Assembly (NCBI GenBank): GCA_003282885.1
Contig: QBYJ01000002.1
Span: 1-64,000 of the forward strand
DNA length: 64,000 bases
Reading direction: 5' to 3'
Origin: SAR116 cluster bacterium AG-325-F22
Lineage (GTDB): Bacteria > Pseudomonadota > Alphaproteobacteria > Puniceispirillales > Marisalimonadaceae
A model generated the notes under the pieces. It had not been told where the DNA came from. It saw only the letters and a program-made list of their open reading frames with translations, and did not search any database. The translations under genes and the position numbers were made by a program. Positions 48,308 through 64,000 of the stretch are shown piece by piece. Positions within the stretch are counted from its first letter, which is position 1. Every line of letters starts with the position of its first letter.

Positions 48308-49075
48308 TTATAAATTATAAAATAATTTTAGACGGGCTAATCTTCTGTAGTAGCTGGTCTGTATTCTAATTAATTTTGTTTTTAAGCGATCCAAAAAACT
48401 TCTATTTGTTGAATATTTATAAGTTCTTACTCCTATATCTGTGAATAACGGGTCCTTAGGATCATTGTGCCATTCTGAAGTAACAGGGTAAGGTTTTACG
48501 GAATATATTGTAACTTTATGTTCAAAAGACCTATCCATAATTACATCGATGGCAAAATTTAATTTTAAGGCGTGTGGTAGAATTGTTTGCGCAGCTTTTT
48601 TACTTATTAAATATCCTGAGGCATCAAGCGGGCCGTAAGCTTGTTGATATAATTTTCGACCTTGTATGAGAGAGGCCACTTTTTTTTCAGGCCTTTGATG
48701 TTGACCGGAAAATTTTATTAAATCTAAGCTAGAAAAATCGTAGGACTTTAACAAATTATTTATTCCCTTGTCTATTAGTACATCATCTTCGAAAATTAGA
48801 AAATGCTTATATTTATCTTGATTAATAAGTTTTTTCCATAAGGAGATATGGCTCAATGCACAAGCTAATTCTGTCTGCATCAATGGTCTTCCGTAATGTA
48901 TTTCAGTTCGTCTTTCATCATAGTAATGTTTGAATTTAATTTTAGAAAAAGGTGTAATTGCCTCAAATATCTCAAAATTGATACCAGTATTTTTTAATTG
49001 TTTAGTTATAAAATTTTTTCTTACAATATTTTTTTTTAAATTTATAACCCATGTAAAATAAAAATTTTTATCCAT
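48308..49075 (-). CDS. Family 25 glycosyltransferase (LPS biosynthesis)
   Basis: VINLKKNIVRKNFITKQLKNTGINFEIFEAI; ELACALSHISLWKKLI; FLIFEDDVLID. Confidence 0.92.
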   Translation of the reverse strand: MDKNFYFTWVINLKKNIVRKNFITKQLKNTGINFEIFEAITPFSKIKFKHYYDERRTEIHYGRPLMQTELACALSHISLWKKLINQDKYKHFLIFEDDVLIDKGINNLLKSYDFSSLDLIKFSGQHQRPEKKVASLIQGRKLYQQAYGPLDASGYLISKKAAQTILPHALKLNFAIDVIMDRSFEHKVTIYSVKPYPVTSEWHNDPKDPLFTDIGVRTYKYSTNRSFLDRLKTKLIRIQTSYYRRLARLKLFYNL

Positions 49076-50549
49076 TTTTATAACTTATTTTAATTAATAA
49101 TATATTTAGAATAATTGCTGGTATCCCAATTATAGCAGTTATAATAAAAAAATCATGGTATCCAAACATATCAACTAAAGTGCCTGAGTAACCGCTCATT
49201 AATTTGGGTACAACGAGCATTATAGAAGTAAAAAAAGCATATTGAGTTGCAGTAAATTTTGTATCTGTAAGGCTCCCTAAAAATGCTACAAAAGCCGTTG
49301 AAGCTAATCCAGCACTAAGATTGTCTGCTGTAATAACAGATACAAGGATTACAGAATTAGGTTCCATTGATGAAATAAGAGCAAATAAGATATTGCTACT
49401 TGCAGCTAAAATAGCACCAATTAGTAAAGTAAAATTAACTCCAATTTTGACAGAAATTATTCCTCCAATCACTCCACCAGAAATAGTTGCAATTAACCCC
49501 CAGAATTTTGAGTAAGTAGCTATTTCTTTTAGATTGTAGCCCATGTCGGAGTAAAATAAGTTAGCAACTACTCCCATAACGATGTCAGCTATTCTATAGC
49601 ATACTATCAATAAAATTAAAATAATTGTGATTTGTCCATATTTTTTTGTAAATTGTTTAAAAGGTAGAAAAAATGTATCATTTACAATATTAGATTTTAT
49701 TATTTTTAACCTAGTTGTTACCCAAAATAAAATAAGTGAGCACGCGACAGCTGAAGATATTTTAATAAAACTATTTAAACCTTTGGACAAAACATTTTCA
49801 AAGTGAAAGCTTGGAAAGTTTATGAAAGTTATAATAAATCCTCCCAATCCAATAAAAAAAATTAATAATAATCTAAGTTTTTCGTTATTGTTATCAAGAA
49901 TATTTTTTTCCACCTTTGGTTCAGGAGACAATAAAGTTGTAAAGAGCCCTAATGATTGGAAGATTGCCATAAACAGATAGGCAGTTTGCCATGGTTTTGA
50001 ATTATAATCATTTTCATCTCCTCCTAAAATGAATACAAAGTATAAAGAACCAGCGCCTGCAACTATCATCCCTATTCTATATCCAATTACATACATTGCA
50101 CTCAAAGCAGTTTGCAGGTTATCTGGAGCTGATTCAATACGATAAGCATCAATTATAATATCTTGATTTGCGCTTGTAAATCCAAGCAATATTATCAATA
50201 AAGTTAATAACAAAATGTTTTTAATAGGATCTATGAATGATATTAATATTAATATACACATAATACAAAGTTGAGTAATTAATAACCAACTTTTTCGATG
50301 ACCAAAAATTTTTGAGATAAAAGGTACAGGGATTCTATCTATCAATGGTGCCCAAATGAATTTGAATCCATACGCTAATCCTGCCCAACTAAATAATGTA
50401 ATTGTACTCCTATCAAGTCCTGCTGATTTTAGCCAAAGTGAGAGTGTAGAAAAAATTAACAAAATTGGAAGACCAGATGAAAAACCTAAAAATAAAAGCC
50501 TTAATACTCTTTTATCTAGATAAATTGTAACTGCATTAAAGTATGACAT
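49068..50549 (-). CDS. ampG: AmpG-like muropeptide MFS permease
   Basis: LFLGFSSGLPILLIFSTLSLWLKSAGLDRSTITLFSWAGLAYGFKFIWAPLID; GFTSANQDIIIDAYRIE typical of AmpG. Confidence 0.9.
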   Translation of the reverse strand: MSYFNAVTIYLDKRVLRLLFLGFSSGLPILLIFSTLSLWLKSAGLDRSTITLFSWAGLAYGFKFIWAPLIDRIPVPFISKIFGHRKSWLLITQLCIMCILILISFIDPIKNILLLTLLIILLGFTSANQDIIIDAYRIESAPDNLQTALSAMYVIGYRIGMIVAGAGSLYFVFILGGDENDYNSKPWQTAYLFMAIFQSLGLFTTLLSPEPKVEKNILDNNNEKLRLLLIFFIGLGGFIITFINFPSFHFENVLSKGLNSFIKISSAVACSLILFWVTTRLKIIKSNIVNDTFFLPFKQFTKKYGQITIILILLIVCYRIADIVMGVVANLFYSDMGYNLKEIATYSKFWGLIATISGGVIGGIISVKIGVNFTLLIGAILAASSNILFALISSMEPNSVILVSVITADNLSAGLASTAFVAFLGSLTDTKFTATQYAFFTSIMLVVPKLMSGYSGTLVDMFGYHDFFIITAIIGIPAIILNILLIKISYKNG

Positions 50550-50630: not shown

Positions 50631-51167
50631 ATGTTTGAGAGTAATTATTGGGTCTTAAAGAAAAATCAAACAAACTATTATCTGCTAGCATATGAAAATT
50701 ATTTTTCGTGTCAAATTGGATCAAATGGAATTATTTCTGTGAAAGAAAAGCAAGAAGGGGACCTCTCAACCCCGAAAGGGAAGTGGATGTTAAATTCTAT
50801 TTTTTATAGAGAAGATAGAATTGATTTAAAAAATTTAGTACCGAATTGTAAATTAGTTTTAAATAAAATCACAAAAAAATGTGGGTGGTGTGATGATCCT
50901 TCGAGTGTAAATTATAATAAATATGTGAAAATTAAAAAAAGAAACGATTTCACTTATGAAAAGCTTTGGCGTCAAGATAACGCTTACGATATTTTAATTA
51001 ACTTAGATTATAATCAAAATCCTATAACCAAAGGAAAAGGAAGTGCAATATTTATACATTGTAGTTTTAATGATTTTAGAAATACAGCTGGCTGTATTGC
51101 TTTATTGAAAGAAAATTTAATTTTTTTGATAAAAAGAATAAATAATACAGTTTTTATAAAGATTTAA
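50631..51167 (+). CDS. YkuD/L,D-transpeptidase-family protein without signal peptide (candidate cytoplasmic L,D-carboxypeptidase)
   Basis: KEGDLSTPKGKW-type motif, GSAIFIHCSFNDFRNTAGCIAL (His...Cys active site); N-terminus MFESNYWVLKKNQ is hydrophilic. Confidence 0.85.
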   Translation: MFESNYWVLKKNQTNYYLLAYENYFSCQIGSNGIISVKEKQEGDLSTPKGKWMLNSIFYREDRIDLKNLVPNCKLVLNKITKKCGWCDDPSSVNYNKYVKIKKRNDFTYEKLWRQDNAYDILINLDYNQNPITKGKGSAIFIHCSFNDFRNTAGCIALLKENLIFLIKRINNTVFIKI

Positions 51168-55625: not shown

Positions 55626-56498
55626 CTATTTCAGATACTCTTTAATAAAAGAGAAATCTTTTTCACCATTATTGTTTTCAATTATATTTGAAAAAAAATT
55701 AAAGGCTTGTTTAGTGAAATCAACCTTTACATTATTATCTTCTGCTGCGGAAATTGCTAATGACAAATCTTTATGCATCAATTTTGAGGAAAAGCCTGCT
55801 TTAAAGTTATTATCTACAGGGCTCACAGGTCCTACATCTTTAACAGGACAATAATTGTTAACGGCCCAACAAGAGCCACTTGAGGTTGAAATAACCTCAA
55901 AGAGTTTGTTTAGATCTATTTTTAAACTTTCAGCTAGGTTAAAAGACTCTGAAACACCAACCATTGTTACTGCTAATAACATATTATTACATATTTTTAC
56001 TGCTTGCCCAGATGTTGCCAACCCACATAACACACTTTTGTTGCCCATAACGTCAAATATAGGTTTCGCTTCATTATAATCCTTTTCATTTCCACCAACC
56101 ATAAAGGTCAATGTAGCTTTTTTTGCTCCAATAACTCCACCAGATACAGGTGCATCAAGTGCTTTTATATTACGTTCATCAGTTAATTTATGAAAATATG
56201 AAGCATTTTCAATATCAATTGTAGAGCAGTCAATAGCAAGAGGTTTATTCTTTAAAACGCTAACTATTTCATTCCATACATACCTAACAATTTTCCCGTC
56301 AGGTAACATTGAAATAATAACATCAGCCGATCTTATTGCCTCATCAATTGAATTTGCACATTTTATGTTGTTTGCTTCAAGTTTTTTATATTTTTCTTTA
56401 ACTATATCATAACCAGTTACTTCATATTTAGCTTCGGCTAAATTTAAAGCCATCTCATATCCCATATTACCAAGACCTATAAAGCTTATCTTTTTCAT
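55626..56498 (-). CDS. NAD(P)-dependent oxidoreductase, 3-hydroxyisobutyrate dehydrogenase-like
   Basis: KISFIGLGNMGYEMALNLAEAKYEVTGYD; LDAPVSGGVIGAKKATLTFMVGG. Confidence 0.9.
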   Translation of the reverse strand: MKKISFIGLGNMGYEMALNLAEAKYEVTGYDIVKEKYKKLEANNIKCANSIDEAIRSADVIISMLPDGKIVRYVWNEIVSVLKNKPLAIDCSTIDIENASYFHKLTDERNIKALDAPVSGGVIGAKKATLTFMVGGNEKDYNEAKPIFDVMGNKSVLCGLATSGQAVKICNNMLLAVTMVGVSESFNLAESLKIDLNKLFEVISTSSGSCWAVNNYCPVKDVGPVSPVDNNFKAGFSSKLMHKDLSLAISAAEDNNVKVDFTKQAFNFFSNIIENNNGEKDFSFIKEYLK

Positions 56499-56503
56499 TT
56501 ATT

Positions 56504-57649
56504 TTACTCCTGTTTTAAAATTTTACTTGTAATTGGGTTAGTTTGAGTTTTCACTATTCTATCTTCCGACAAAATACCAAGGTTAATTAGTAAATCTAAT
56601 TTTAAATTCATCAAAAAAGGGTACCATTCTCTTGAAATCTCTGAATGCCAGCTCCACAATAATTCATCCAAAATTTTAACATCTTTGATTTTATATTTTA
56701 AAGTTTTAAATTTAGGTTTGTTTGTAAAATCAGGTGACTTGAAATACTTACTTATCTCTAAAAAATGAATTGGTATATCATTTTCAATAATTACATTTTT
56801 CCAATTTTTGTAATCAGTATTTAGTAGTTGATTGCCAACAATATCAATGATGAGTAAATCTGTCTCTATCATGCCTGTTGGGTTAATCATAATATTCATA
56901 TAACTAGACCTATGTTTCCATGGACCAATAAATAGTCTGCTTGGACAATAGTCATTAGCATAAAAGTTGTCCCATAAAACTATTTCATTTCTTAAAAATC
57001 CAGAAACTTTTTTTAAACTGCTTTGATTTATTTTTTTTTCAACTACATTTTTCCCACAATAAAATACTTTTATAGAATTTTTTATATGTAAACCAAAATC
57101 ACGAAGATAACTATCAGTTGGTTTTATAAGTTCATCTGAGTAGATTCTAGGTACTACGTAAATATCACTTTTTAGATTATCAGATAATCTATTAGCTAAT
57201 ATTGCATGAGCTTTTCCTTCGGATAATTCTTTATTTTTTTTATTAGAAAAGTTGTCTGGTATATCGTCAAACTGCAAAACAATTGACCTTGCATTAAGTT
57301 TTAAAGAAAAAGAACATTTTTTTAAAAGAATTTTAAAATCATTATTTTTTTCTATATCATCTAAATTTTTGAAATTAAAATCTATCCCTGGTGAAATACC
57401 AAATAAAATATCGATTTTTTTTGAACATGCATTTTTGCAAAATAATTTAAAATTTTTACTCCAAGTCTTCTTATAAGGTTGTCTCCAATTTTTACGATGA
57501 TATGTGTCTTCTTTGGGAGCATATAGATATTTACACATTTTATTTTTTTGTAAATGCTCTAAAATTCTATTTCTATCATTCCAGGTTAGCATTTTGCCAT
57601 AATAACCCTCAATATAGCCATTATTAGTTTTACAATTAGATTTAGTCAT
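56504..57649 (-). CDS. GH84-like beta-N-acetylglucosaminidase (O-GlcNAcase/NAGidase domain), no signal peptide
   Basis: GYIEGYYGKMLTWNDRNRILEHLQKNKMCKYLYAPKEDTYHRKNWRQPY; FGISPGIDF; IVLQFDDIPD catalytic Asp-Asp pair. Confidence 0.85.
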   Translation of the reverse strand: MTKSNCKTNNGYIEGYYGKMLTWNDRNRILEHLQKNKMCKYLYAPKEDTYHRKNWRQPYKKTWSKNFKLFCKNACSKKIDILFGISPGIDFNFKNLDDIEKNNDFKILLKKCSFSLKLNARSIVLQFDDIPDNFSNKKNKELSEGKAHAILANRLSDNLKSDIYVVPRIYSDELIKPTDSYLRDFGLHIKNSIKVFYCGKNVVEKKINQSSLKKVSGFLRNEIVLWDNFYANDYCPSRLFIGPWKHRSSYMNIMINPTGMIETDLLIIDIVGNQLLNTDYKNWKNVIIENDIPIHFLEISKYFKSPDFTNKPKFKTLKYKIKDVKILDELLWSWHSEISREWYPFLMNLKLDLLINLGILSEDRIVKTQTNPITSKILKQE

Positions 57650-57699
57650 ATAAAATATTTTGCATTGTTATTAAGTATTAGTATGAAAGATAAGATATT

Positions 57700-58389
57700 A
57701 TGAAAATTTTAGCAATCGGAAGCCATCCTGATGATATTGAAATTTTTATGTTTGGTTTATTATGCGCATTTCTAGAAAGAGGAGACCAAATCTGCTTGGC
57801 AATTGCTACAGATGGTTCTATGGGCGGTATTTATCCAGGACTTGAACTTGCTAAAAAGAGGAAACTTGAGGCTGAAAATGGTCTAAGATATTTAGGGAGA
57901 CCCATTTTCTTAAACTTTCAAGATGGAAACTTGCATTACGAACCATTAGCTCCAAAAATTATTAAAAAAATAATTAATGATAATAAACCAGATCTTATTG
58001 TTACACATGCACCAGAAGATTATCATCCGGATCATCGCGCATTGTCAGAATATGTTAGTTTTGCTGCAGGATTTAGCTGTCCAATTCTGTTTTCTGATAC
58101 CTTAATGGGAGTAAAATTTGAACCAGATTATTATGTTGATATTACATCTTTTTTTCAATTTAAAGCAAAGGCAATTTTAGCTCATGAAAGTCAAAACCCA
58201 AAAAAATTTCTTGAAGCAACAAAAATTCTTAATAGATTTAGAGCTGCTCAATGCAATGAACCTAATGGTTATTATGCTGAAGCATACAGGTTTGAGAAGA
58301 AGTTTCCATTTTCTGACATACGTCAGATGCTTCCCCCTTCTCCAAAATATAAACCCTACTATCAAAATATTACAGGGGCATTAATTTAA
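57700..58389 (+). CDS. PIG-L (LmbE-like) family deacetylase
   Basis: MKILAIGSHPDDIEIFMFG and APEDYHPDHRALSE zinc-binding motifs. Confidence 0.92.
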   Translation: MKILAIGSHPDDIEIFMFGLLCAFLERGDQICLAIATDGSMGGIYPGLELAKKRKLEAENGLRYLGRPIFLNFQDGNLHYEPLAPKIIKKIINDNKPDLIVTHAPEDYHPDHRALSEYVSFAAGFSCPILFSDTLMGVKFEPDYYVDITSFFQFKAKAILAHESQNPKKFLEATKILNRFRAAQCNEPNGYYAEAYRFEKKFPFSDIRQMLPPSPKYKPYYQNITGALI

Positions 58390-59489
58390 TAAGATGGCAT
58401 AAAAATTTTTCCGCCGCTAATTGGCTTTTTTACGCCAGTAGTAGATGGAAAAGTTATAGGGAGATTGTAATTAGTCCTTGCGCCTAAATATGCAAAAAGT
58501 TCAGCTTCTATATATTGGCCATTTAAATTAAAGTCGCTTGAAAGGAAAATGTTAGAACTTATGTGTTGTCTTAATTTTTTGACTAGCTGTGGGTTAAATT
58601 GACCTCCACCTAATAAAATTATATTATTTGGTTTTTGGGGTAGCAAACACAAAGAGCTGGAAATAGTAGAGACAGTAAACTCTAATAATGTAGCTAAAAT
58701 ATCCTCAATTAAATAATTTTCTTTAAAAAAACATTCAAGCTCTTTCAAGAAGTATAGTTTATCTAACGATTTTGGAAACTTTCTTTTGAAGTAGATGTTA
58801 CTTGTTAGTTTATTAAGAATGTTAAAATCAATTTTTCCTTTAGACGCTAATATTCCGTTTTTGTCATATGGTTTCTTTAATATTTTTTGCATAAAGAAAT
58901 CCATTAACCCATTACCTGGTCCTGTATCAAAACCAACAAGCTTTTTATTGTGGTAATAAGTAAGGTTTGATACACCTCCTATATTAACAAAAATGGTAGG
59001 AGGTGTAATATTTATTTTTTTTGCTAAGGCCATATGGTAAATTGGGGATAAAGGTGCTCCATGTCCTCCGTTTTGAATGTCGTTTTGTCTAAATTGAGAT
59101 ATTACAGGTAAACCCGAGATGTTTGATAAAAGTTGAGGATCACCTAATTGTATTGATATTTTTTTTTTAAAGGAATGATATATTGTTTGTCCGTGAAAAC
59201 CAATTAAGCTTGGCTTTGCTATATTTTGTTTAAGTAGTTTTTTTACTAATGTTATGTGATCTAAAGTTACTAACTTGTTTATTAGGTTAAACTGATCTTT
59301 GTTTTTTATAAAATTAAGAGGAGTTTGTTGCGCAATAAGTAAAATATCTTTTGTATTTTTCTTGTATTTTACTGAAGCTTGTATCTTTGTTCGACTGAAA
59401 TTTAAACCATTTGTTTTCAAAATGGTTCCATCAATACCATCCATGCTAGTACCTGACATCATTCCAATAATAAACATATTATTACTCAT
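58386..59489 (-). CDS. anmK: Anhydro-N-acetylmuramic acid kinase
   Basis: FIIGMMSGTSMDGIDG; GFHGQTIYH; QLGDPQLLS; FVNIGGVSNLTY; GFDTGPGNGLMD. Start set at MSNNMF (59489); ORF can extend to 59525. Confidence 0.95.
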   Translation of the reverse strand: MSNNMFIIGMMSGTSMDGIDGTILKTNGLNFSRTKIQASVKYKKNTKDILLIAQQTPLNFIKNKDQFNLINKLVTLDHITLVKKLLKQNIAKPSLIGFHGQTIYHSFKKKISIQLGDPQLLSNISGLPVISQFRQNDIQNGGHGAPLSPIYHMALAKKINITPPTIFVNIGGVSNLTYYHNKKLVGFDTGPGNGLMDFFMQKILKKPYDKNGILASKGKIDFNILNKLTSNIYFKRKFPKSLDKLYFLKELECFFKENYLIEDILATLLEFTVSTISSSLCLLPQKPNNIILLGGGQFNPQLVKKLRQHISSNIFLSSDFNLNGQYIEAELFAYLGARTNYNLPITFPSTTGVKKPISGGKIFMPSY

Positions 59490-61374
59490 TAAAACTTTTT
59501 TCCTGATTTTTATATCCTGGTACAAGTTTTTTAATTATTAATTCTATCTTTTTAAATTTATTTGCCTCTATATATTTAGAAATTAAATTAAAGTTTTTTG
59601 ATATAATGGAAGTTTCTAAAAATTCTTCATTAGCTCTAAAAATTTTCTTATTTGACGTTGGTATTGGGTTATTTGCAATGAGAACTTCTTCAAATAGTTT
59701 TTCTCCTGGCCTTAAACCAGTAATAATTATCTCAATATCTCCTCTAGGATTGTTTTTGTCCTTTAAGGATTTTCCTGATAAAAAAATCATTTTTTTGGCT
59801 AAATCAAAAATTCTTACAGGCTTACCCATTTCTAAAATAAAAACATCCCCTCCTTTTGCAAGGCTGCCTGCTTCAATTATTAGATGTATAGCTTCTTTTG
59901 CAGTCATAAAAAACCTTGTTACTTTTTTATGAGTTAAAGTAATTGGTTTCCCTTCTAAAATTTGCTGATGAAATTTCGGAATGACAGATCCAGAAGATCC
60001 AAGTACATTTCCAAAACGAACCATAGTAAAAATAGTTCTAGGAGATTTAATATTTAATGATTGAAGGTAAAGCTCAGCTAATCTTTTGGAAGCTCCCATA
60101 ATATTTGTAGGTCTTACTGCTTTATCAGTGCTTATTAAAACAAATTTTTTAGCTTTATATTTCAAAGATAGATCTGCAATAATTTTCGTTCCAAATACAT
60201 TATTTCTTAAACCTTCAATTGGGTTTGATTGGACTAGTGGCACATGTTTGTACGCAGCGGCATGATAAATGATGTTGGGTTTATGTTTAGAAAAAATATT
60301 TTCCATTGCAGCTTTATTAGAAACGGAACCTAAAATTGGAACAATTGAAGTATTAAAATTAAGTTTTTCAATCAGAATTTGATGTATTTTGTATAAATTA
60401 AACTCACTAGAATCCAAAATGATTAATTTAGATGGATTTTGTAAAAGAACTTGATGGCAAAGTTCGCTTCCTATTGACCCACCTGCACCTGTAATCAAAA
60501 CAACACTTTTGTTTATATAATAATTTTTTCTTTTAAAAGAAATGTCAACAGGCGTTCTACCTAGAAGTTCTTCAATATTTAAAGGACGTAAATCGTCAAG
60601 TGAAATATTTTTATTTTCCAACTCAGAAAGAGTTGGTAAAGTTTTTACAGCAATCTTGTTTTTTTGGATCTCATTTAAAATGATACTTTTTTTTATATTA
60701 TTTAAGGATGGAATTGCTAACAAAATTGTATCAATTCCGACTGTTTTTTTTATATTTGCTAATTGTTTGGCATTATAAATTATTTTATTATCAATTTTAT
60801 TTCCAACAAGTTTTATGTTGTCATCGATAAAACCTAGAAAAGCCATTTTTCTGCTAAAACGAATTGTTTGAGCTAACTGCCTGCCAGCAACACCTGCACC
60901 ATAAATTAGTACTTTTTCTTTAGTGTTAAAATTACCCTTTGATTTGTCTCCCAGAAGAATACGTATACTAATTCGTGAAAATAAAATCATGAATGTCAAT
61001 ATTACAGTATGAATTATACCTATTGTTCTTGGTATTCCATCTATTCCGATAAGAGTGCAACAAGTAAAAATTAAGATATCATATATCAATAAAGCTTTAC
61101 CTAGTTGAATAAATGCATTCCATCCTGAATATCTGTTTAGGCTTTTATAGATATCAAAAATAATAAAAATTATTACTAAGGAAATTGAGGAAAAAATTAG
61201 GAATAAAGGGGGAAAATAATTTAGTGGATAAAAAAAATCTAAACGCAAATACATTCCAATAAAAATTGAGGCATTGCACAAAAAAACATCAACTATAACT
61301 AAAAATATCTTTTTATAAATTGTATAATTTTTATAAAAATTATAAAGTTTATTATTTAAAATTTTAATATTCAT
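59482..61374 (-). CDS. Membrane-bound UDP-sugar 4,6-dehydratase (CapD/WbpM/FlaA1-like)
   Basis: N-terminal TM helices, then SVVLITGAGGSIGSELCHQVLLQNPSKLIILD; ISTDKAVRPTNIMGASKRLAEL; MVRFGNVLGSSGSVIPKF. Confidence 0.94.
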   Translation of the reverse strand: MNIKILNNKLYNFYKNYTIYKKIFLVIVDVFLCNASIFIGMYLRLDFFYPLNYFPPLFLIFSSISLVIIFIIFDIYKSLNRYSGWNAFIQLGKALLIYDILIFTCCTLIGIDGIPRTIGIIHTVILTFMILFSRISIRILLGDKSKGNFNTKEKVLIYGAGVAGRQLAQTIRFSRKMAFLGFIDDNIKLVGNKIDNKIIYNAKQLANIKKTVGIDTILLAIPSLNNIKKSIILNEIQKNKIAVKTLPTLSELENKNISLDDLRPLNIEELLGRTPVDISFKRKNYYINKSVVLITGAGGSIGSELCHQVLLQNPSKLIILDSSEFNLYKIHQILIEKLNFNTSIVPILGSVSNKAAMENIFSKHKPNIIYHAAAYKHVPLVQSNPIEGLRNNVFGTKIIADLSLKYKAKKFVLISTDKAVRPTNIMGASKRLAELYLQSLNIKSPRTIFTMVRFGNVLGSSGSVIPKFHQQILEGKPITLTHKKVTRFFMTAKEAIHLIIEAGSLAKGGDVFILEMGKPVRIFDLAKKMIFLSGKSLKDKNNPRGDIEIIITGLRPGEKLFEEVLIANNPIPTSNKKIFRANEEFLETSIISKNFNLISKYIEANKFKKIELIIKKLVPGYKNQEKSFNE

Positions 61375-61512
61375 ATTAATTCCAAGTTGATGCTTGTTAA
61401 ATCAAAAAGTATAATAAAAAACTTATAAAAATTTTTTCAATAAATCATATTTTAATAACATGAATTATATAAGATTTTAAATAAAGTTAATTTTAAATTT
61501 TGGGGTCGCTTT

Positions 61513-62256
61513 ATGCAAACAGAAAAACTTCCACCAAAAGAAATGTGGATAGATAAATTGCCAAACCGAATGGCTCTTAAGGTTATGCTTGAAAATCAGG
61601 CTGGCGCCATCAAAGCAGTTGATTCAGCTCTTGAAGAAATTGAAAAAGCTTCTGAGGCTATTTATAATAAACTTAAAGAAAATCTTAATAGCAGATTAAT
61701 TTATGTAGGTGCTGGTACGTCTGCTAGAATTGGATTTCAAGATGGAGCAGAATTGTTGCCAACATTTGGCTGGCCTGAAAAACGTGTTGCATATTTAATT
61801 GCTGGAGGGTTCAAAGCATTAACTGAGGCTGTTGAAAATGCTGAAGACAATGTTCTTGATACAAAGAAACTGGTTGATGGCATCAAAATAACAAGCTCTG
61901 ACGTCGTGATTGCATTATCTGCATCTGGGACAACACCTTTTACAATTTCCGTTGTAAATGAAGCAAATAAAAAAAATGTTTTAACAATAGGTATTGGTAA
62001 TAATTATGGCGCTGAGCTTCAAAAAGTAGCTAAGTTTGGAATAACGTTAAACACTGGATTTGAGATTTTAGCTGGCTCTACAAGGTTAAAAGCAGGAACT
62101 GCCCAAAAAATTTGTTTAAATATGATATCCACACTTGTTATGTCTAACTTAGGAAATATTCAAAATGGTATGATGATTAATTTGAATCCCAATAATAAAA
62201 AATTGAAAGAAAGATATGGTAGGATAAAAATATACCTTGATGAATTAAAGAAATAA
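61513..62256 (+). CDS. murQ: N-acetylmuramic acid 6-phosphate etherase-like SIS protein (short, lacks C-terminal helical domain)
   Basis: RLIYVGAGTSARIGFQDGAELLPTFGW; AVENAEDN; SASGTTPF; AGSTRLKAGTAQKICLNMIST; 247 aa. Confidence 0.85.
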   Translation: MQTEKLPPKEMWIDKLPNRMALKVMLENQAGAIKAVDSALEEIEKASEAIYNKLKENLNSRLIYVGAGTSARIGFQDGAELLPTFGWPEKRVAYLIAGGFKALTEAVENAEDNVLDTKKLVDGIKITSSDVVIALSASGTTPFTISVVNEANKKNVLTIGIGNNYGAELQKVAKFGITLNTGFEILAGSTRLKAGTAQKICLNMISTLVMSNLGNIQNGMMINLNPNNKKLKERYGRIKIYLDELKK

Positions 62257-62488: not shown

Positions 62489-63496
62489 ATGAAGATTAAA
62501 ACATTAGATAATAAGACTATTTTAATTACAGGTGGGACAGGAACATTTGGACAAAACATAGTTAATAAAGTTTTAAGTGAATATAATCCAAGGAAAATAA
62601 TTGTATTTTCTAGAGATGAAATGAAACAATGGAAAATGTCAGAAACATATCAAAAAGAAAAAAGAATAAGATTTTTTATTGGAGATGTAAAAGACAGAGA
62701 AAGATTATATAGAGCTTTTAATGGTGTTGATTATGTTGTGCATGCAGCAGCTCTTAAAATAGTCCCAACAGCAGAATACAACCCTTTTGAATGTATCAAG
62801 ACAAACGTAATAGGAGCTATGAATGTTATAGATGCTGCTATTGATAATAACGTAAAAAAAGTTATTGCATTATCAACTGATAAAGCTTCCTCGCCAATAA
62901 ATCTTTATGGTGCTTCTAAGCTTGCATCTGATAAAATGTTTGTTGCAGCAAATAATTATTCAACCGATAGAACCTTACTTTCAGTTGTCAGGTATGGAAA
63001 TGTAATGGGTTCAAGGGGTTCTGTTATACCTTTTTTTCTACTAAAGAAAGATCAGGGAATACTTCCAATAACTGACTTTAAAATGACAAGATTTATGATA
63101 ACCATTGATCAAGGAGTTAAGTTTGTTTTGATGAGTTTAGAAAAAATGTTAGGTGGAGAAATTTTTGTAAAAAAAATTCCTTCAATTAAAATTACTGACA
63201 TTGCTAAAGCTGTATCTAAAAAAGCCGAATTAGTTGAAATAGGATTAAGGCCAGGAGAAAAAATACATGAACAAATGGTTGGAAAAGAAGATTCTATAAA
63301 CACATATGAATATAAAGATTATTTCAAAATTATACCTGATATTTTAATTCGAGGTGATAAAAGAAAAGTTATAGGTAATGGAAAAAAGGTTAAAGAAAAT
63401 TTTTTCTATTCGAGTGATATTAATAAAGAAAAATTGTCTGTGCCTGCTTTAGAAAAATGGATTCAGAAAAATAAAAATGAATTTTTAAAATTATGA
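62489..63496 (+). CDS. pseB: UDP-N-acetylglucosamine 4,6-dehydratase (inverting)
   Basis: KTILITGGTGTFGQNIVNKVLSEYNPRKIIVFSRDEMKQWKM; HAAALKIVPTAEYNPFECIKTNV; LSTDKASSPINLYGASKLASDK. Confidence 0.95.
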   Translation: MKIKTLDNKTILITGGTGTFGQNIVNKVLSEYNPRKIIVFSRDEMKQWKMSETYQKEKRIRFFIGDVKDRERLYRAFNGVDYVVHAAALKIVPTAEYNPFECIKTNVIGAMNVIDAAIDNNVKKVIALSTDKASSPINLYGASKLASDKMFVAANNYSTDRTLLSVVRYGNVMGSRGSVIPFFLLKKDQGILPITDFKMTRFMITIDQGVKFVLMSLEKMLGGEIFVKKIPSIKITDIAKAVSKKAELVEIGLRPGEKIHEQMVGKEDSINTYEYKDYFKIIPDILIRGDKRKVIGNGKKVKENFFYSSDINKEKLSVPALEKWIQKNKNEFLKL

Positions 63497-64000
63497 AAAT
63501 CCCTTACTCCAGACAATGGATTGACAATCAAGATTTAAGAGAAGTTGAAAAAGTTTTAAAATCAGATTTTATTACTCAAGGTCCTAAGATTGATGAATTT
63601 GAAACTGAGATTAGTAGATATGTTAATTCTTCATATTGTATAGCAGTAAATTCTGCAACTTCAGCCCTTCATTTGGCTTGTTTAGCTTTAGGTTTGAAAA
63701 AAGGTGACTTGTTTTGGACCTCACCTATCTCATTTGTGGCAAGTGCTAATTGTGGTATTTATTGTGGAGCAGAAGTTGATTTTGTAGACATTCATGAAGA
63801 TACATTCAATATAGATGTTTATAGTTTAGAAAAAAAACTCCATAAAGCAAAAACAATAGGAAGGTTACCTAAAGTCATTATTCCAGTACATATGGCAGGG
63901 CAATCCTCTGATGCTAAAAAAATATATGAATTAGTTAAGCCATATAATATAAAAATTATTGAAGATGCAAGCCATTCAATTGGAGGAACGTACAATAATA
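63493..64000 (+). CDS. pseC: UDP-4-amino-4,6-dideoxy-N-acetyl-beta-L-altrosamine transaminase, truncated by the window end
   Basis: MKIPYSRQWIDNQDLREVEKVLKSDFITQGPKIDEFE...NSATSALHLACLALG; EDASHSIGG; 4-nt ATGA overlap with pseB. Confidence 0.92.
   Translation, partial: MKIPYSRQWIDNQDLREVEKVLKSDFITQGPKIDEFETEISRYVNSSYCIAVNSATSALHLACLALGLKKGDLFWTSPISFVASANCGIYCGAEVDFVDIHEDTFNIDVYSLEKKLHKAKTIGRLPKVIIPVHMAGQSSDAKKIYELVKPYNIKIIEDASHSIGGTYNN

Follow-up and report, generated by a model that had tools for sequence, protein, structure and literature searches.

A conserved GH84 gene cluster and a proposed variant of muropeptide recycling in SAR116 bacteria

Genes of the locus

The DNA analysed here, hereafter the window, is a stretch of 64,000 nucleotides from a genome of the SAR116 cluster, order Puniceispirillales (G000; 1.60 Mb, 63% complete), whose named relatives are SAR116-cluster bacteria as well. 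A preliminary description had read four of its genes, encoding a GH84 enzyme, a PIG-L deacetylase, AnmK and a MurQ-like etherase, as a possible muropeptide/amino-sugar salvage module, with AmpG and YkuD genes 5-8 kb away from this group. Matches to Pfam and NCBIfam profiles bear out the positions and identities of these genes, which are given here with two of their neighbours.

49068-50549, minus strand: AmpG muropeptide permease (TIGR00901, 476 bits, cut-off 350)
50631-51167, plus strand: leaderless YkuD-family protein, candidate ElsL-like cytoplasmic L,D-carboxypeptidase (PF03734, E=6e-8)
55626-56498, minus strand: HIBADH (3-hydroxyisobutyrate dehydrogenase-like) gene (TIGR01692, 310.9 bits)
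56504-57649, minus strand: predicted GH84 beta-N-acetylglucosaminidase, 381 aa (PF07555, E=2e-53)
57700-58389, plus strand: putative PIG-L (CE14-type) deacetylase (PF02585, E=7e-25)
58386-59489, minus strand: AnmK, anhydro-N-acetylmuramic acid kinase (PF03702, E=4e-73; NF007141, 358.6 bits, cut-off 352)
59482-61374, minus strand: CapD/FlaA1-type polysaccharide gene (PF02719, E=6e-113)
61513-62256, plus strand: MurQ-like N-acetylmuramic acid 6-phosphate etherase (NF003915, 275 bits, cut-off 168)

The divergent arrangement of PIG-L and GH84, 50 bp apart, had also been described correctly. Two amendments are needed: the CapD-like gene splits AnmK from MurQ within the four-gene group, and the HIBADH gene, 5 bp after GH84, had been omitted. 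The CapD/FlaA1-type gene overlaps the start of AnmK and occurs at that site elsewhere only in a sister genome (L050); we rejected it, together with PseB, as a pathway member, both genes belonging to a surface-polysaccharide region that extends beyond the window. HIBADH is linked to GH84 only in the window's own family (f1), lies elsewhere in the closed genome G064, and is probably a mere neighbour outside the pathway. The PseB-bearing surface-sugar region borders the cluster (window 62489-64000, L267), and a NeuB/PseI-like gene was noticed by eye past the window. Neither the window nor the other parts read of this 63% complete genome showed genes for Amidase_2, NlpC/P60 or M19 proteins.

The window GH84 carries the PF07555 catalytic domain far above the cut-off (182 against 25 bits). 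Its Asp128-Asp129 pair, reported as intact in the preliminary description, is unchanged in 20 relatives and in all 119 aligned GH84 sequences, and K46, Y170, W226, N228, D233 and N256 are likewise conserved; the sugar-pocket residues were mapped to human OGA by alignment. The N-terminus leads directly into the GYIEGYYG motif, so that no signal peptide is visible, again as described. The best PDB matches of its AF2 model (pLDDT 85) are human OGA, OgOGA and CpNagJ, and the best Foldseek matches among those listed are all GH84 enzymes. With the GH84 O-GlcNAcases (human OGA, CpNagJ, BtGH84 and OgOGA) the SAR116 enzyme shares the fold, the Asp-Asp pair and conserved sugar-pocket residues, but its identity to them is ~20-28% in structural alignments, its C-terminal region is distinct and its setting is different. 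It carries no GH3 domain, with the KHFPGHG...DSH motif, and is not a member of the NagZ family.

AmpG, AnmK and MurQ of the recycling pathway are all present in the window, AnmK scoring above the NCBIfam equivalog cut-off (NF007141). The MurQ protein is ~50 C-terminal residues shorter, as it is in the SAR116 members checked, closed genomes included, and it aligns with both catalytic glutamates of E. coli MurQ; Granulosicoccaceae MurQ retains this ~50-residue C-terminal region of the E. coli protein. The PIG-L protein matches PF02585 and has the HPDD and HPDH metal motifs of CE14 intact, in keeping with the preliminary description. The YkuD protein (PF03734) shows no leader by eye and, at 178 aa, falls within the 105-200 aa range of leaderless ElsL-type proteins. 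Together with its position beside AmpG, which is kept across SAR116, this likens it at the domain level to ElsL, the leaderless YkuD L,D-carboxypeptidase of Acinetobacter, whose survey placed it mainly in Gamma- and Betaproteobacteria and Verrucomicrobia (PMC8649774).

Distribution of GH3, GH20, GH84 and AnmK

The preliminary description had named a conventional nagZ in the genome, with GH84 inactive on muropeptides, as one observation that would speak against its proposal. We found no nagZ-type GH3 gene at any level from the genome through genus and family to the order: the GH3 family (PF00933) was matched in 0 of 101 order genomes (the window genome and 100 relatives, 38 of the 101 being at least 90% complete), in a search that gave a match in 10 of 14 control genomes. 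GH3 was present in 291 of the 337 class genomes sampled (alphaproteobacteria with 90% completeness or more, except for the window's own), and the alphaproteobacteria studied so far use NagZ according to the literature. Most relatives are incomplete, so that single absences mean little; the order-wide absence of GH3 is independent of any one genome. GH20, considered as an alternative hexosaminidase, was ruled out by its own absence (0/101, with positive controls).

In the closed genome G064, searched over its whole 2,325,691 bp, phmmer found no match to E. coli NagZ, NagK, NagA, NagB, AmpD or LdcA. This genome carries a 135-aa Amidase_2 protein that represents AmpD despite the phmmer miss, which indicates that pairwise misses are a weak guide for divergent families; our claim that NagZ is absent is based mainly on the family search with the GH3 profile. 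The hexosaminidase families searched were GH3, GH20 and GH84, which leaves some room for an unrecognised enzyme at the NagZ step, with GH84 acting on another muropeptide, for example unusual glycan-strand ends. We consider this very improbable, as GH84 chemically suits the step and its gene overlaps or abuts recycling genes.

Co-occurrence had been suggested as a further check, and in a survey of the order GH84 tracked AnmK. The two genes are present in 69 and 68 of the 101 genomes, respectively, 66 having both, 30 neither, 3 GH84 only and 2 AnmK only (5 discordant), and of the 38 nearly complete genomes 28 have both, 9 neither, 1 GH84 only and 0 AnmK only; these counts are uncorrected for shared ancestry, with losses spread across several genera. 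Of the three genomes with GH84 only, two or more have the locus at or near a contig end, and in G056 (56% complete), one of the two genomes with AnmK and no GH84, other genes occupy the GH84 position. We dismissed the GH84-less relatives as counter-examples, since 30 of these 32 also lack AnmK, i.e. the whole pathway is missing. Nearly complete members without either gene are G013, G030, G080, G087, G088, G090-G092 and G094, in which the sugar-recycling arm has apparently been lost as a whole.

Few genomes outside the order have GH84 (6 in the class sample). Some alphaproteobacteria there have AnmK and no detected GH3 (G119, G136, G142, G166, G172, G234, G267 and G290), and these may represent further replacements of NagZ or assembly gaps.

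Linkage and the Arg168 clade

A lack of conserved linkage in relatives was the other observation that had been named as unfavourable. On the contrary, members of the order keep these genes linked to a high degree, and the linkage recurs in a gammaproteobacterial family. The SAR116 locus reads, with variations, AmpG - YkuD - MurQ / AnmK - (PIG-L) - GH84 - M19 or HIBADH. Seven recycling genes, for an M19 dipeptidase, GH84, AnmK, MurQ, AmpG, NlpC/P60 and Amidase_2, share a 7-kb stretch in the closed genome G064 (1229917-1236729). This core, plus YkuD, is also present in two other closed genomes, G058 and G063, with G063 carrying PIG-L in addition and showing no M19 gene beside its cluster. The GH84 and M19 genes have 4 bp in common in eight loci, which suggests that they are translationally coupled. 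Amidase_2 is found in the cluster of many relatives. The preliminary description had spoken of a near-complete recycling route, which understates the case for the relatives, whose clusters add an amidase, an NlpC/P60 peptidase and often an M19 dipeptidase.

Among the best 80 hits, GH84 of the Granulosicoccaceae (Gammaproteobacteria) adjoins AmpG or lies one gene away from it in all 11 loci. AnmK accompanies it in at least 4 of these, MurQ in at least 3, Amidase_2 in at least 6 and NlpC/P60 in some, counts that are lower bounds, as they cover the top 80 hits of a single scan with flanks of ~6 kb. The SAR116 and Granulosicoccaceae GH84 proteins form a single clade (support 100/99) that excludes those of SAR86 and Fibrobacterota and the remaining GH84s. 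Within it, sequences from Granulosicoccaceae are interspersed among those from SAR116, suggesting that the gene has moved between the two classes. Three Granulosicoccaceae genomes (G433, G442 and G443) have a NagZ-motif GH3 together with an AmpG-linked GH84; the replacement of NagZ is thus incomplete there, and these genomes perhaps represent a stage of it.

The clade is marked by an arginine, Arg168, in 79 of its 80 members (70 of 71 SAR116 rows and 9 of 9 Granulosicoccaceae rows), whereas the 39 GH84s outside it all have Thr, Ser or Gln at the position (Arg in 0/39); the O-GlcNAcases named above likewise carry one of these three. In the alignment, R168 stands two residues ahead of the Tyr that corresponds to the active-site Tyr of human OGA. 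We infer that R168 may contact the lactyl carboxylate of anhMurNAc.

The known substrates of characterised GH84 enzymes are O-GlcNAc proteins or host glycans, and one could therefore regard the SAR116 protein as a scavenging chitobiase or O-GlcNAcase that lies beside recycling genes by chance. This seems highly unlikely to us: the enzyme is predicted to be cytoplasmic, sits within a recycling cluster in two classes, is gained and lost with AnmK, and belongs to the only family that the order possesses among the three searched (GH3, GH20 and GH84). Moreover, the GH84s of SAR86 and Fibrobacterota, which do not have R168, showed no recycling neighbours in the flanks examined, and we rejected them as further examples of recycling. 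Their settings are of another kind, with PrmC- or ThiF-like neighbours in SAR86 (L101-L118) and UbiD in Fibrobacterota (L096-L103).

Considering the absence of GH3 and GH20, the tracking of AnmK and the conserved linkage, the earlier proposal that GH84 acts on GlcNAc-anhMurNAc or its products gains strong comparative support, and GH84 very probably replaces NagZ in SAR116. The proposed reaction and the cytoplasmic location would be shared with NagZ, while GH84 is an unrelated family with other catalytic machinery (substrate-assisted, with an Asp pair).

The PIG-L deacetylase and the proposed pathway

The product of MurQ is GlcNAc-6-P, and in E. coli its deacetylation is the task of NagA. No NagA (TIGR00221) was found over the cut-off in the window genome, and 12 of the 101 order genomes have one. 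Strong matches to the profile of the cluster PIG-L occur in 56 of the 101 genomes, each of which also has GH84 or AnmK; as a rule, the PIG-L gene is placed between these two. In the 66 genomes with both GH84 and AnmK, 55 have PIG-L only, 8 NagA only, 3 neither and none both, a mutual exclusion with p=3e-8, uncorrected for kinship. The switch occurs even inside one genus (g7), with PIG-L in G074 and NagA in G060, G084 and G093, and nagA adjoins anmK or lies at most 2 kb away in four genomes (G072, G089, G096 and G099). The deacetylase had been proposed to act on the disaccharide or its products; because PIG-L alternates with NagA, this holds in a refined form, the most likely substrates being salvage products, namely GlcNAc-6-P and possibly GlcNAc. 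We thus lean towards PIG-L as a replacement of NagA.

Alternatively, GH84 may serve salvage while PIG-L does not substitute for NagA and has GlcNAc, the disaccharide or some unrelated amide as its substrate, in which case GlcNAc-6-P would be reused undeacetylated via a mutase and GlmU. Three genomes with GH84, AnmK and MurQ and neither PIG-L nor NagA (G058, G064 and G079) would fit this, as would the nearest solved structures to PIG-L, which are diacetylchitobiose deacetylases, enzymes acting on unphosphorylated GlcNAc2/GlcNAc. Set against this are the exchange of PIG-L and NagA, never found together, and the restriction of all 56 strong matches to genomes with GH84 or AnmK. We hold this alternative to be rather unlikely.

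Based on gene content, linkage, co-occurrence, GH3/GH20 absence and catalytic residues, we conclude that these genes most probably represent a SAR116 variant of cytoplasmic muropeptide recycling in which two or three steps are carried out by non-orthologous enzymes. AmpG would import GlcNAc-anhMurNAc-peptides, and the leaderless YkuD protein, if ElsL-like, would trim tetrapeptides. In the relatives, the Amidase_2 protein would then remove the peptide, and NlpC/P60, in some also the M19 dipeptidase, would break it down. Hydrolysis of the GlcNAc-beta-1,4-anhMurNAc bond is predicted to fall to GH84 instead of the GH3 enzyme NagZ, through the substrate-assisted mechanism that the GH84 family employs with its Asp-Asp pair. 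AnmK would convert anhMurNAc to MurNAc-6-P, MurQ would convert this to GlcNAc-6-P, and PIG-L may stand in for NagA by deacetylating GlcNAc-6-P and perhaps GlcNAc as well. In its fullest form, our reading is that SAR116 and the Granulosicoccaceae relatives share horizontally a complete salvage cluster in which an R168-type GH84, its Arg binding the anhMurNAc lactyl carboxylate, replaces NagZ, and that SAR116 PIG-L is a new class of GlcNAc-6-P deacetylase replacing NagA; we give this combination a probability of about one half.

NagZ is a widespread cell-wall recycling enzyme, a drug target and a generator of AmpC beta-lactamase signals, and in an entire order of bacteria abundant in the ocean its place has apparently been taken by a member of the family to which human O-GlcNAcase belongs. 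This would assign a native role to one clade of bacterial GH84 enzymes and make PIG-L a candidate for a GlcNAc-6-P deacetylase from a new family. Genome-based prediction of peptidoglycan recycling would change as well, since searches restricted to nagZ and nagA would label SAR116 as non-recyclers. In the open-access literature (subscription papers and most preprints being outside its scope), our search gave nothing relevant linking GH84 to peptidoglycan recycling, muropeptides or AnmK.

Compared with canonical Gram-negative recycling (AmpG, AmpD, NagZ, LdcA, AnmK, MurQ and NagA in E. coli; a Caulobacter variant in PMC13046382), AmpG, AnmK and MurQ are the same as in the E. coli route, the relatives have an Amidase_2 amidase, and the order of steps is alike. 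The differences are GH84 for GH3 NagZ, PIG-L where NagA, usually absent, would stand, and LdcA, unmatched in G064, other SAR116 members having a YkuD protein without a leader next to AmpG; furthermore, the SAR116 genes are clustered, whereas the canonical ones are scattered. The YejBEF-YepA recycling of Agrobacterium is likewise an alphaproteobacterial case of one recycling step carried out by an unrelated protein, but in Agrobacterium it is the transporter that has been replaced, with NagZ kept, while in SAR116 the transporter is kept and NagZ would be replaced (PMC9790009).
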